DNA of 33,271 nt from Patescibacteria group bacterium (GTDB lineage: Bacteria; Patescibacteriota; Patescibacteriia; UBA9934; GWF2-40-263): the NCBI GenBank assembly GCA_004298405.1, contig SCSL01000037.1:1-33271 (forward strand), read 5' to 3'. Within the stretch, counting starts at the first letter, position 1. The number at the start of each line of letters is the position of its first letter. The translations under genes were made by a program, and so were the position numbers. Of the stretch, positions 24,867 to 31,560 are shown in pieces. The notes beneath the pieces are model-generated. The model did no database searches. It was not told the DNA's origin and saw only the letters and a program-made list of their open reading frames with translations.

Positions 24867-25877
24867 TTATGTTATCACATGTTTGTATCCATGTTCGGTT
24901 ACCACACGTCCACGCGGTGTGCGGGCGAGGAACCCAATTTGGATAAGGAACGGTTCATGGACGTCCTCGATCGTTTGGACTTCTTCTTGGGTAGCCGCCG
25001 CAATGGTTGAGAGACCCACGGGGCCTCCGCCAAATTTTTCGATGATGGTGGTGAGGATACGCCGGTCCGTTTGGTCGAGCCCCATGTGGTCGACGGTAAG
25101 TTTCTTGAGAGCCTCCTCACAAAGAGATTCTGAAATCTGTCCGTCGCTTCGAACTTCTGCAAAGTCTCGCACACGTCGCAGGAGACGATTGGCAATGCGA
25201 GGCGTTTTGCGGGAACGTGTTGCGAGAATGTCGATGGCCTGTGGGTCGATGGCGGTTCCCAAGAGATAGGCACTTCGTTTTACAATTGAACCAATATGTT
25301 CATCCTCATAGAAGTTGAGATGGTGGGTCACACCGAATCGGTCGCGCAGAGGTCCTGTGAGTAGGGAGAGACGTGTCGTGGCGCCAATCAAGGTGAAGCG
25401 CTCAAGGTTGAGTCGCAGGGTGCGCGCGGTTGGACCCTTACCCACGATGATATCTAAGGCGTAATCCTCCATGGCTGGATACAGAATTTCCTCGATCGTT
25501 TTATTGAGGCGATGAATTTCGTCGATAAACAGAATGTCACCGCGACCAAGATTTGAGAGGATCGCGGCCAGATCACCGACACGCTCGAGTGCTGGTCCAG
25601 AGGTTACGCGTATCTGTGAGCCCATCTCATGGGCGATGATGTGAGCGAGAGTGGTCTTCCCAAGACCAGGGTTCCCGTAGAGCAGGACATGCTCGATCGG
25701 TTCCTGACGCTTTTTGGCGGCTTCGATGAAGATCGAAAGGTTTTCCTTGATGTCGTCTTGACCGACAAAATCCTGAAGGGTCTGTGGTCGCAACCCAACC
25801 TCAAACTCCCGCTCCTCATTTGGGGCCTCGGTTGCCACGATTCGCTCTGGGATCTCCATTTCTTCACGTTCGATCAT
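24867..25877 (-). CDS. ruvB: Holliday junction branch migration helicase RuvB
   Basis: [89 protein letters not shown]. Confidence 0.97.
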
Positions 25878-25907: not shown

Positions 25908-25957
25908 CTAGGGGTGGTTACGAGTCCATTATGCCTGCGACCGAGTTCGTGAGCAAA

Positions 25958-25990
25958 TAAAAACACTCTTGATCCCAAGAGCGTTTTTAT
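25958..25990 (-). terminator. terminator downstream of tRNA-Leu
   Basis: Minus strand AAAAACGCTCTTGGGATCAAGAGTGTTTTTATTT. Confidence 0.75.
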
Positions 25991-26076
25991 TGGTGGGCCG
26001 GGAGGGGATCGAACCCTCATGAGGTTTCCCTCACGACATTTTAAGTGTCGAGCGTATACCATTCCGCCACCGGCCC
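25991..26076 (-). tRNA. tRNA-Leu(UAA), CCA encoded
   Basis: Reverse complement GGGCCGGTGGCGGAATGGTATACGCTCGACACTTAAAATGTCG...CCGGCCCACCA; anticodon loop CTTAAAA. Confidence 0.95.
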
Positions 26077-26082
26077 ATTTGT

Positions 26083-26556
26083 TTATCCTCTTCGTTTGTT
26101 TCTGCCACGATGCGTTGGTTTTAAGCTATGGCAGTTTGGGCAGAGAATTCGTAAATTCACCAACCGGTTGTCATGCTTATCTCCATTGACGTGGTCTAGT
26201 TCCAATGGGATTCTCCCATCTTCTGATTTTTTTGCCCAGCCGCATTCTTCACACCTCACTTTTTTTAGACCTACTCGAAAAAGTCTTTTTTTGAGCTTGA
26301 AACTTTGATAGAGGCTTCCTTTGACCAAAACATCATCAAGCGACTGGACATACCTATTTGGATGTCTAAGTCCTCGAGACCAAGCCCTTCCTTTAAAGTG
26401 ACTAATATCAATCTTGAGTTCAGCAAGGTAACGTTTTATCTGATCGTAGTTTCCTCCTGCTGGAACCAAGCCAAGCTTTTCAATCACTTGTCTAAAACTG
26501 ATTGATTCCTTTGCAGCCTTTATTAGTGCGGGATTTGTCCACTTCTTTTTTCTCAT
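26083..26556 (-). CDS. HNH endonuclease
   Basis: VRCEECGWAKKSEDGRIPLELDHVNGDKHDNRLVNLRILCPNCHS; CxxC...HxxG...N...CxxCH. Confidence 0.88.
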   Translation of the reverse strand: MRKKKWTNPALIKAAKESISFRQVIEKLGLVPAGGNYDQIKRYLAELKIDISHFKGRAWSRGLRHPNRYVQSLDDVLVKGSLYQSFKLKKRLFRVGLKKVRCEECGWAKKSEDGRIPLELDHVNGDKHDNRLVNLRILCPNCHSLKPTHRGRNKRRG

Positions 26557-26592
26557 ATGGTACAGGCAATTGTATCATATAAATTAGGTTCC

Positions 26593-26615
26593 TATACCAT
26601 TCCGCCACTCGCCCA
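26593..26615 (-). repeat. partial tRNA-Leu 5' fragment
   Basis: TATACCATTCCGCCACTCGCCCA matches 26055-26077 of tRNA-Leu at 21/23 positions, same orientation. Confidence 0.8.
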
Positions 26616-26644
26616 CACGGGAAAAGGGTAGCAAAGAAGCGGCT

Positions 26645-27394
26645 TTACGCCAAGGTTCGGTGATGGGCTCGTTTCTGTTTTAGTCGTTTTTTGTCTGTAG
26701 GAGAGAGTTTCTCCGTCGCATACGAAAAGGTAATCGCCGGGAGCTCGAGGACATGAGATTCGAGGAACGTGAGGGTTTCGCGCGGCCAGAGTTTGTGCGC
26801 TTCACGCAATTGCCAGCCCACGCCTTTTTGGACATAGAGATCTTTGTCCTGGAGGAGCGGCTCGATGAGAGACAAGACGACTCTGCGTGAAGGAGGACTG
26901 CGTCGAGGACTTGCGTAGTAGATGGTCGAGACGACCGAAGCGCGACGCTTCCATGGGTTCGTTGAGCGATTCCATTGTTGAAGTATTGGTTCAATCAGCG
27001 TTCCGTGTTGTTCATAGAGAATCGACACCAACTGGCAGAGTTGGTCGGCATGCGCCCAGTTTTCGATGCGCTCCATCCATCCTCTGAAGATACGGAAATG
27101 TTTTTGGGTGAGCGTCGACGACTTCCATCGGTAGTAGATGAGCGGCAGGCTCATGACGTCATGGAGCTTTGTGTGGTTCCAGATCTGATTCCAAATTTCG
27201 AGAATCTCCTTATCTGTTTTGTCGTAGAAAGAAAATCCATCACGGACGAGCCGGTTGAGGTCAGGCATCCGCACGGCAAGAAACTTCAGATTCGTTCTGG
27301 TGATCGGCTGGAAGGACGCTTTGTAGGGCGCGTCGACCGGAAGTTTACGGACGCGCGCTTCGACCTCATGGAGGGGGTTTGCTTGACGAGGCAT
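26645..27394 (-). CDS. DNA alkylation repair (AlkD-like HEAT repeat) protein
   Basis: RMPDLNRLVRDG, IWNHTKLHDVMSLPLIYY, NWAHADQLCQLV, NPWKRRASVVS, DKDLYVQKGVGWQLREA. ORF opens at 27640. Confidence 0.8.
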   Translation of the reverse strand: MPRQANPLHEVEARVRKLPVDAPYKASFQPITRTNLKFLAVRMPDLNRLVRDGFSFYDKTDKEILEIWNQIWNHTKLHDVMSLPLIYYRWKSSTLTQKHFRIFRGWMERIENWAHADQLCQLVSILYEQHGTLIEPILQQWNRSTNPWKRRASVVSTIYYASPRRSPPSRRVVLSLIEPLLQDKDLYVQKGVGWQLREAHKLWPRETLTFLESHVLELPAITFSYATEKLSPTDKKRLKQKRAHHRTLA

Positions 27395-30055: not shown

Positions 30056-30130
30056 GCGGGTATAGCTCAGTGGTAGAGCGTCTCCTTGCCAAGGAGAAGG
30101 TCGCGGGTTCGAACCCCGTTGCCCGCTCCA
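30056..30130 (+). tRNA. tRNA-Gly(GCC), CCA encoded
   Basis: GCGGGTA/TGCCCGC acceptor, anticodon GCC, GCGGG-TTCGAAC-CCCGT T arm, CCA. Confidence 0.95.
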
Positions 30131-30163
30131 ACAAAAAGATCTGACATGTTCAGGTCTTTTTGT
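30131..30163. terminator. bidirectional terminator between tRNA-Gly and integrase
   Basis: ACAAAAAGATCTGA-CATGT-TCAGGTCTTTTTGT. Confidence 0.75.
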
Positions 30164-30203
30164 TTGTGTTGAGCGGTGAAACGAGTCTCGAATACATGAC
30201 CTT

Positions 30204-31304
30204 CTAACCTGCTTGGAGCTGTCGAACTTTTTCAGTGCCCACAGAGTGCCCAAACATTGCATTTGGAGTGTCCAAAACGGCAACAGCATCGTGCAATGTA
30301 TGAGGGGCAAGGTGAGCGTATCGTTCGGTCATGACAATGCTTGAGTGACCAAGGAGTTGCTGGACGTGACGCATAGGAACATTCTTCATCACGAGTTGTG
30401 AGGCAAACGTGTGGCGCAAGCCGTGCCAACCGATCTTCTCGATTCCTGTTCGACTACACAGGCGCCACAAGCCGCCCTCTGCCTGCTTGGGAGTTACTGG
30501 CTTCCCGTCTTCTTGATGGAACACGAGACCTCTGGGTTCTCTCATCTGGAACAGGAGATCATCCAGGGAAGGGCTCATGGGGATCGACCGACTCTTGTGA
30601 CTCTTGGGAGATGTCACCTCGCCACGGACAATCGCACGCCGGACATGGACGAGGTGTTCTGCGAAGTCCACGTCCTCCCATTGAAGGCCTAATAATTCTC
30701 CCAAGCGCATACCAGTGAAGAGTCCCACAACAACCATGCTGCGCCAGTAGAGCTCTGTGAAGTCACCACAGAGCTTGTGGCATTCATCCTGTGACAGGAA
30801 ACGAATCTTGGAAGGAGGGACTCTGAGACATTTGATAACAGGGATGGTCTCAAGCTCTCCCCATTCAATCGCACTGTGCATGAGCTTCTTGAGAACCGTG
30901 AGTTGATTGTTGATCGTCTTTGGATGTGCACCTGTAGCCTGGTGCGAGCGTTTGTACTGTTCAATGCTGTGCGAGGTGATTTCGTCGAGGCTCATCGCTC
31001 CAAAGAAAGGAATCAGATGAAGACGCAGAATTGTCTCCTTGCTTTGTTGCTCTGAACACTTGTTGTTGGTCACGACGTACGTCTTGAACCATTCTTTGGA
31101 GAACTCCTTGAAGGTTCGTTTGGTCACCGCGGCTAGTTCGTCGATGGATTCTCCCGAGAGAAGCTTCTGTCTCAGGAGACGCTCAAACGCCTCTGCTCCA
31201 CGTCTGGAGTTTTCAGGGCTCTTGCGACGATACCGTTCACGCATGAAACGAAAGTCGGCATACCAAGCATCTCTAATTTTTCGTACCGCCATACTCATGC
31301 TCAT
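30204..31304 (-). CDS. tyrosine recombinase / phage-type integrase
   Basis: GLFTGMRLGELLGLQWEDVDF, GWHGLRHTFASQLVM, QQLLGHSSIVMTERYAHL (R..HxxR..H..Y). Confidence 0.95.
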   Translation of the reverse strand: MSMSMAVRKIRDAWYADFRFMRERYRRKSPENSRRGAEAFERLLRQKLLSGESIDELAAVTKRTFKEFSKEWFKTYVVTNNKCSEQQSKETILRLHLIPFFGAMSLDEITSHSIEQYKRSHQATGAHPKTINNQLTVLKKLMHSAIEWGELETIPVIKCLRVPPSKIRFLSQDECHKLCGDFTELYWRSMVVVGLFTGMRLGELLGLQWEDVDFAEHLVHVRRAIVRGEVTSPKSHKSRSIPMSPSLDDLLFQMREPRGLVFHQEDGKPVTPKQAEGGLWRLCSRTGIEKIGWHGLRHTFASQLVMKNVPMRHVQQLLGHSSIVMTERYAHLAPHTLHDAVAVLDTPNAMFGHSVGTEKVRQLQAG

Positions 31305-31560
31305 TTATGGCTTCGATGCGACAACTTTGGAGGTACTCGCAGATATCCGCTTGGTCGAACCGCAAACCGCTACGGGTCTTGTAAAACCGCACCAAACGTC
31401 TATCCACGAGCCTATAAACCGCACTCTGCGAGATCCCCAGCCATTCCATGACATCGGATACCCGCAAAAGCGGTTGAGGCCTCTGTTGTCCATGCGAAGC
31501 CGCCATATTTAGTTGTGAATGAGCATCTGTCCGAGAACGGTCTTTCAACCGCATGGGCAA
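31273..31560 (-). CDS. excisionase-like helix-turn-helix protein
   Basis: LLRVSDVMEWLGISQSAVYRLVDRRLVRFYKTRSGLRFDQADICEYLQ (HTH_17/MerR-like); overlaps integrase start. Confidence 0.75.
   Translation of the reverse strand: MPMRLKDRSRTDAHSQLNMAASHGQQRPQPLLRVSDVMEWLGISQSAVYRLVDRRLVRFYKTRSGLRFDQADICEYLQSCRIEAINEHEYGGTKN

Follow-up and report, generated by a model that had tools for sequence, protein, structure and literature searches.

A chromosomal HNH gene with a replacement tRNA-Leu(UAA) copy in Patescibacteria: a probable freestanding homing-endonuclease cassette

Freestanding homing endonucleases encoded beside tRNA genes are known from phages, among them T4 SegB and T5 hegA/F-TflIV. SegB cuts within tRNA genes and drives the inheritance or amplification of tRNA segments (PMC2988022, PMC13096335), although it is a GIY-YIG and not an HNH enzyme. 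A different likeness is found in fungal mitochondria, where mobile ORFs in Allomyces atp6 and in Glomus atp6, atp9, cox2 and nad3 couple an endonuclease ORF to foreign sequence that substitutes for the native end of the gene, and the native end persists as a displaced remnant (PMC3630166). Those elements affect the C-terminal end of mitochondrial protein genes and encode LAGLIDADG or GIY-YIG enzymes. Group I introns of tRNA-Leu(UAA) reside in the very gene considered here, and phage members of the HNH family described below lie in its anticodon loop or next to introns.

We examined a window of 33,271 nucleotides, contig SCSL01000037.1 of a Patescibacteria genome (GCA_004298405.1), in which a 515-nucleotide segment and the intact tRNA that follows it probably form a freestanding homing-endonuclease cassette, whose HNH enzyme would cut tRNA-Leu(UAA) and whose replacement tRNA would be, at least in part, imported. 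Unlike the phage genes SegB and hegA/F-TflIV, the cassette is chromosomal and bound to one tRNA, splits the native gene and brings a replacement copy. With the fungal elements it shares an endonuclease that comes with a foreign replacement piece while the native piece is displaced, but the target is a bacterial tRNA gene, the enzyme is of the HNH type, and a phage relative (contig L283) has a complete extra gene. In contrast to the tRNA-Leu(UAA) introns, the bacterial cassette contains no intron and needs no splicing. The enzyme is thus of a known kind; no earlier description of an HNH gene arranged with a replacement tRNA in Patescibacteria was found in the open-access literature searched, which was not exhaustive, and within that literature the chromosomal cassette appears to be new.

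The features of the locus (Table 1) follow one another on the minus strand as left flank, tRNA-Leu fragment, HNH ORF, a gap of 6 nucleotides, complete tRNA-Leu(UAA), terminator-like hairpin and ruvB. As the initial annotation had noticed, two copies of a tRNA-Leu 5' end in the same orientation, TGGGCGAGTGGCGGAATGGTATA (26615-26593) and TGGGCCGGTGGCGGAATGGTATA (26077-26055), bracket a segment whose only ORF is the HNH gene; they are identical at 21 of 23 positions. Base 26615 belongs to the flank, and the fragment proper is GGGCGAGTGGCGGAATGGTATA. The 15-mer TGGCGGAATGGTATA has two exact matches in the 1.0-Mb genome, the fragment and the tRNA, the next best site carrying two mismatches. ARAGORN and Rfam call a single tRNA-Leu here, presumably functional, and neither calls a tRNA at the position of the fragment.

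Table 1. Features of the tRNA-Leu(UAA) locus, in the order in which they are read on the minus strand.
Feature	Coordinates	Strand	Basis
Native left flank of tRNA-Leu(UAA)	26615..26656	-	34/41 to G035, 30-31/41 to G002, G004 and G039; shuffles lower
Native tRNA-Leu(UAA) remnant, nucleotides 1-22, acceptor 5' strand to D-loop	26593..26614	-	22/22 to native relatives
Dyad ATGGTATAGG-N24-CCTGTACCAT, proposed operator	26557..26600	-	9/10 inverted repeat
HNH homing-endonuclease gene, 157 aa	26083..26556	-	Pfam, PHROG and PADLOC 'HEase' matches
Complete tRNA-Leu(UAA), anticodon UAA, C30-G40	25991..26076	-	ARAGORN/Rfam; anticodon-arm comparison
Native terminator-like hairpin directly 3' of the tRNA	25955..25990	-	Alignment with HNH-free G002 and G004, which share the hairpin
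ruvB, right-hand syntenic neighbour of tRNA-Leu(UAA)	24867..25877	-	Pfam RuvB

tRNA genes are common integration sites, and the usual att repeat is the 3' end of the tRNA. Ordinary site-specific integration, with the fragment as an att-site repeat, would account for a direct repeat that flanks an insert in such a target. Yet the insert contains no integrase, it is the 5' end of the tRNA that is repeated, and the copies differ at two acceptor positions while the anticodon arm has been replaced, unlike the outcome of exact att recombination, so that we give this explanation almost no credence. Elsewhere in the window, a tyrosine integrase and an HTH_17 (excisionase-like) protein adjoin tRNA-Gly(GCC) (30056-31560) and probably mark where an integrated element ends; a second att copy for this region is absent from the window.

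The uninterrupted gene that the initial annotation proposed to seek in relatives is present in two genomes of the same genus (G002, G004) and three of the same family (G035, G039, G009), all of which lack the HNH gene and have one tRNA-Leu(UAA) followed by ruvB. The 41 nucleotides before the native tRNA agree with those before the window fragment at 30-34 positions in G002, G004, G035 and G039, above the level of shuffles, and this flank is presumably the original promoter of the native gene. The left flank of G009 has no match to that of the window, though the tRNA-Leu(UAA)-ruvB order is there. The 5' end of the native tRNA equals the window fragment at all 22 positions in G003, G005, G009, G035 and G039; the acceptor of G002 and G004 starts with GGGCTGG, unlike the fragment. 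Since G035 combines the best flank match with the exact fragment sequence at the start of its native tRNA, the likeliest origin of the fragment is the 5' end of the old gene, still beside its old flank. Two histories had been suggested from the window alone. The first, entry of an HNH element into a tRNA gene with restoration of that gene, is backed by the four empty sites with matching flanks and ruvB; the second, replacement of the 3' part of a second tRNA-Leu with acceptor GGGCGAG, finds no support, because the relatives have one tRNA and GGGCGAG is a native acceptor of the family's tRNA-Leu(UAA). A second clean empty site was sought near G286, G094 and G427 without success, the available relatives being too distant.

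The 80 closest relatives of the HNH protein, collected by a protein-only search without any tRNA criterion, are 54-67% identical to it and come from many Patescibacteria lineages and from Elusimicrobiota. In every one of the 80, tRNA-Leu(UAA) follows directly on the same strand, and in all loci but one it starts 458-510 nucleotides after the start of the HNH match. The distribution of the HNH gene is patchy, with the profile present in 9 of 145 relatives and in 36 of 380 genomes of an even survey of the phylum. In the latter survey (window excluded), 25 of 28 long Leu-type matches precede tRNA-Leu(UAA); two others are flanked by tRNA-Leu(UAA) and tRNA-Leu(CAG), and in the remaining case tRNA-Leu(UAA) occurs only upstream. 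Decayed HNH copies occur in G032, G398 and G453. Similar HNH genes next to tRNA fragments, which the initial annotation had also proposed to look for, do recur: a tRNA 5' remnant scores above chance in 28 of the 80 loci (4 expected), 22 of these falling in the bin 70-80 nucleotides upstream of the HNH start codon, and in strong cases (L011, L032, L044, L064, G286, G427) the acceptor of the remnant differs from that of the functional tRNA. Convincing 3' remnants were sought in the bacterial loci and not found. The Elusimicrobiota copies form one clade nested within the Patescibacteria tree (support 99/99), as expected of horizontal spread; the tree is only partly resolved. A gene at its presumed target site, a sporadic distribution and empty sites, as expected of a homing endonuclease, are thus all in evidence. 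An assembly error was rejected, the same arrangement being present in dozens of independent assemblies.

Several loci depart from the common layout. A tRNA-Cys gene upstream is common to many of them. In L166 and L173, tRNA-Leu(UAA) and tRNA-Leu(CAG) enclose the HNH gene, which immediately precedes tRNA-Leu(CAG); here the element may have switched to a second leucine tRNA. In L086 (G061), unlike other loci, the HNH gene and tRNA-Leu(UAA) are on opposite strands and point towards each other, through an inversion or a different insertion. More distant HNH relatives in other Patescibacteria (L190-L193, L187, L189, L194, L087, L088) adjoin tRNA-Thr(CGU), tRNA-Thr(UGU) or tRNA-Ser(UGA) and are possibly parallel elements for other tRNAs; in those read (L187, L191, L194), a Cys-rich N-terminus replaces the helical one.

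Could the HNH gene instead have long stood beside tRNA-Leu(UAA), immobile and inherited vertically, with the fragment a decayed tandem tRNA-Leu copy? The nearly invariant order of HNH and tRNA-Leu would fit, as would the shared tRNA-Cys, but the five family members described above lack the HNH gene, presence is patchy, the HNH tree mixes phyla, and phage L283 keeps both tRNA halves around the insert. This view, which we consider very improbable, is largely refuted by the empty sites. Plain tandem duplication of the tRNA was rejected, and chance similarity of tRNA 5' ends is excluded most strongly by the empty sites and by the recurrence in other lineages.

The protein itself scores above the cut-offs of Pfam HNH_3 and HNH and matches phrog_10822 (E=3e-42). 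H122, N134 and H143 are invariant across 39 relatives, and the Cys pairs nearly so. In an AlphaFold2 model (pLDDT 86, pTM 0.53), three N-terminal helices (HTH-like) are connected by a linker to a C-terminal Zn/HNH domain, with two strands and a helix at the HNH (beta-beta-alpha metal) active site. Foldseek gave only weak matches, none with E<=0.001 and the best to HNH nucleases such as ScoMcrA, and no solved structure matched in sequence. At many loci (for example, L003, L010, L015, L047 and L072) the HNH frame reads on into the tRNA, whose 5' half encodes the last residues of the predicted protein. A defence or addiction module, in which tRNA-Leu genes or incoming phage DNA would be the target of the nuclease and the swapped tRNA its immunity gene, could explain why a resistant-looking tRNA travels with the enzyme, and there is weak similarity to the HNH domain of ZorE (Zorya). 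That similarity is confined to this domain, however, and is no full-length ZorE match, scoring 24 bits where the cut-off is 600. PADLOC ranks 'homing endonuclease' (HEase) as its best model, and the phage members occupy introns or tRNA arrays, as homing enzymes do. We regard a defence role as improbable.

The intact tRNA appears to be a composite. Its anticodon arm, GCTCGACACTTAAAATGTCG, agrees with those of most native family members at 13 of 20 positions and with those of HNH-linked tRNAs elsewhere at up to 19 of 20. The variable arm (12/13) and T arm (16/18) resemble those of native G039. Such short stretches are suggestive rather than proof that the tRNA is element-derived at least in the anticodon arm, and they suggest a chimera with an exchange point between the anticodon and variable arms. 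That the intact gene is, at least partly, an imported copy, and that the class of element is widespread, could not be seen by the initial annotation. One HNH-free genome, G008, has an anticodon arm identical to that of the window (20/20); a deletion between the two direct copies may have removed its HNH gene, although this is untested.

The imported arm has a recurrent signature: 68 of 81 HNH-linked tRNAs have C-G as the 30-40 pair, which adjoins the anticodon loop. The comparison around these 81 loci included HNH-free loci fetched for having the swap, and the unbiased counts are those of the genome surveys, in which C30-G40 was present in 7 of 9 genomes with the HNH gene versus 8 of 133 without (p=1e-6) and, in the other, in 5 of 5 versus 11 of 108 (p=3e-5). 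The loci are related, and counts and p-values overstate their independence. Because the anticodon loop is where several phage members are found, the swap could block cutting, and we propose, without cleavage data, that it makes the donor allele resistant to the HNH enzyme. It cannot be the only protection, as it is absent from 13 of the 81 tRNAs (about a sixth), those of Elusimicrobiota among them. The swapped pair also occurs in tRNA-Leu(UAA) at 16 HNH-free loci (L099, L100 and 14 others), which may be scars of past cassettes whose HNH gene was lost; this, too, is untested.

HNH relatives on phage contigs extend the picture, with a tRNA gene nearby in 68 of 80. Contig L283 encodes, in order, a tRNA 5' half, the HNH gene, a complete tRNA-Leu(UAA) and a 3' half. 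The two halves pair as GCCCGAG/CTCGGGC, the 3' half ending in CTCGGGCACCA; the HNH gene overlaps the complete tRNA, which has the acceptor GCGGGTG/CACCCGC. Of the loci that have an HNH gene and a complete tRNA, L283 is the only one in which the two halves of the split gene are both kept. A native remnant, a foreign anticodon arm and, in L283, both halves together make up what is expected of endonuclease-linked gene replacement. The HNH gene of Serratia phage Slocum, annotated as an F-TflIV homologue, is 45% identical over 75% of the length of the window protein and overlaps a tRNA-Leu gene by 10 nucleotides; the order HNH then tRNA-Leu also occurs in the named phages Slocum and Maleficent.

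In L270, L280, Dulem virus 42 and the huge phage LR756511, the HNH gene lies inside the anticodon loop of tRNA-Leu. Group I intron-like cores were recognized by eye in LR756511, which was not scanned with Rfam, and in L270, where Rfam scored no group I intron; Rfam did find group I introns near the HNH gene in L260 and L290. These links to introns in tRNA-Leu are what would favor reading the window gene as a remnant, once intron-encoded, of a group I intron that has degraded here. Against this, Rfam detected group I introns neither in the window nor in 20 bacterial loci, the tRNA is contiguous, and the downstream tRNA is complete and not a 3' exon. A degraded intron is hardly tenable for the bacterial loci, though a group I intron may be the distant ancestor.

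A further recurrent feature is a dyad upstream of the HNH gene, GGTANACG-N21-24-CGTNTACC, found in 57 of 81 loci versus 3.0 in shuffles (maximum 6), with a spacing mostly of 21-24 nucleotides and often located right before or across a TATAAT-like box. The arm is similar to the D-arm of the tRNA, GGTATACGC. The left arm of the window dyad consists largely of the remnant's D-loop, and its right arm abuts the start codon. As RNA the window dyad would also form a hairpin, but the leader does not fold with significant stability (z -1.3), favoring a DNA operator over an RNA switch. For I-TevI, a sequence resembling the homing site overlaps the enzyme's own promoter and acts as operator (PMC2988022). 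We propose by analogy that the D-arm-like dyad is an autoregulatory operator. The likeness lies in a target-like sequence overlapping the enzyme's own promoter; I-TevI is a GIY-YIG enzyme of a phage intron, and binding in the window is predicted from the dyad alone, with no binding data.

Insertion into the tRNA gene together with a replacement is well supported, whereas cutting, homing or mobility, resistance and autoregulation are inferred. In a cassette-free genome, the HNH enzyme would recognize the native tRNA-Leu(UAA) gene, of the type GGGGACTTAAAATCCCC, from the D-arm to the anticodon arm and cut it around the anticodon arm. The exact cut site is uncertain, since the window remnant stops in the D-loop, whereas the position of several phage members is at the anticodon. 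Repair of the break, by a route that we can only infer from the arrangement observed, would copy in the HNH gene along with the replacement tRNA, so that the essential tRNA is never lost, and would leave the native 5' end as the remnant seen upstream of the HNH gene. The imported tRNA, usually with the swapped 30-40 pair, would resist further cutting. As HNH gene and tRNA lie on one strand 6 nucleotides apart, co-transcription is probable: transcripts starting at the old tRNA promoter, or at a promoter of the element, would run through the HNH gene into the tRNA. The HNH protein would probably repress its own gene through the promoter-overlapping dyad.

Such cassettes may be hard to lose as the sole source of an essential tRNA that is co-transcribed with the enzyme and resists its cleavage; HNH clades may have been retargeted (Leu-CAG, Thr, Ser), and tRNA genes of reduced genomes may repeatedly be replaced by element-borne copies, a wider reading that we hold only tentatively. 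Homing endonucleases that carry a replacement were known from fungal mitochondria; here the target is an essential tRNA gene on bacterial chromosomes of a very large and little-studied group, and empty, occupied, decayed and possibly post-loss states are all seen. One protein family connects phage tRNA arrays, group I introns and freestanding enzymes. The finding accounts for odd tRNA-Leu sequences in Patescibacteria genomes and provides a natural system in which to study the persistence of selfish genes in minimal genomes.
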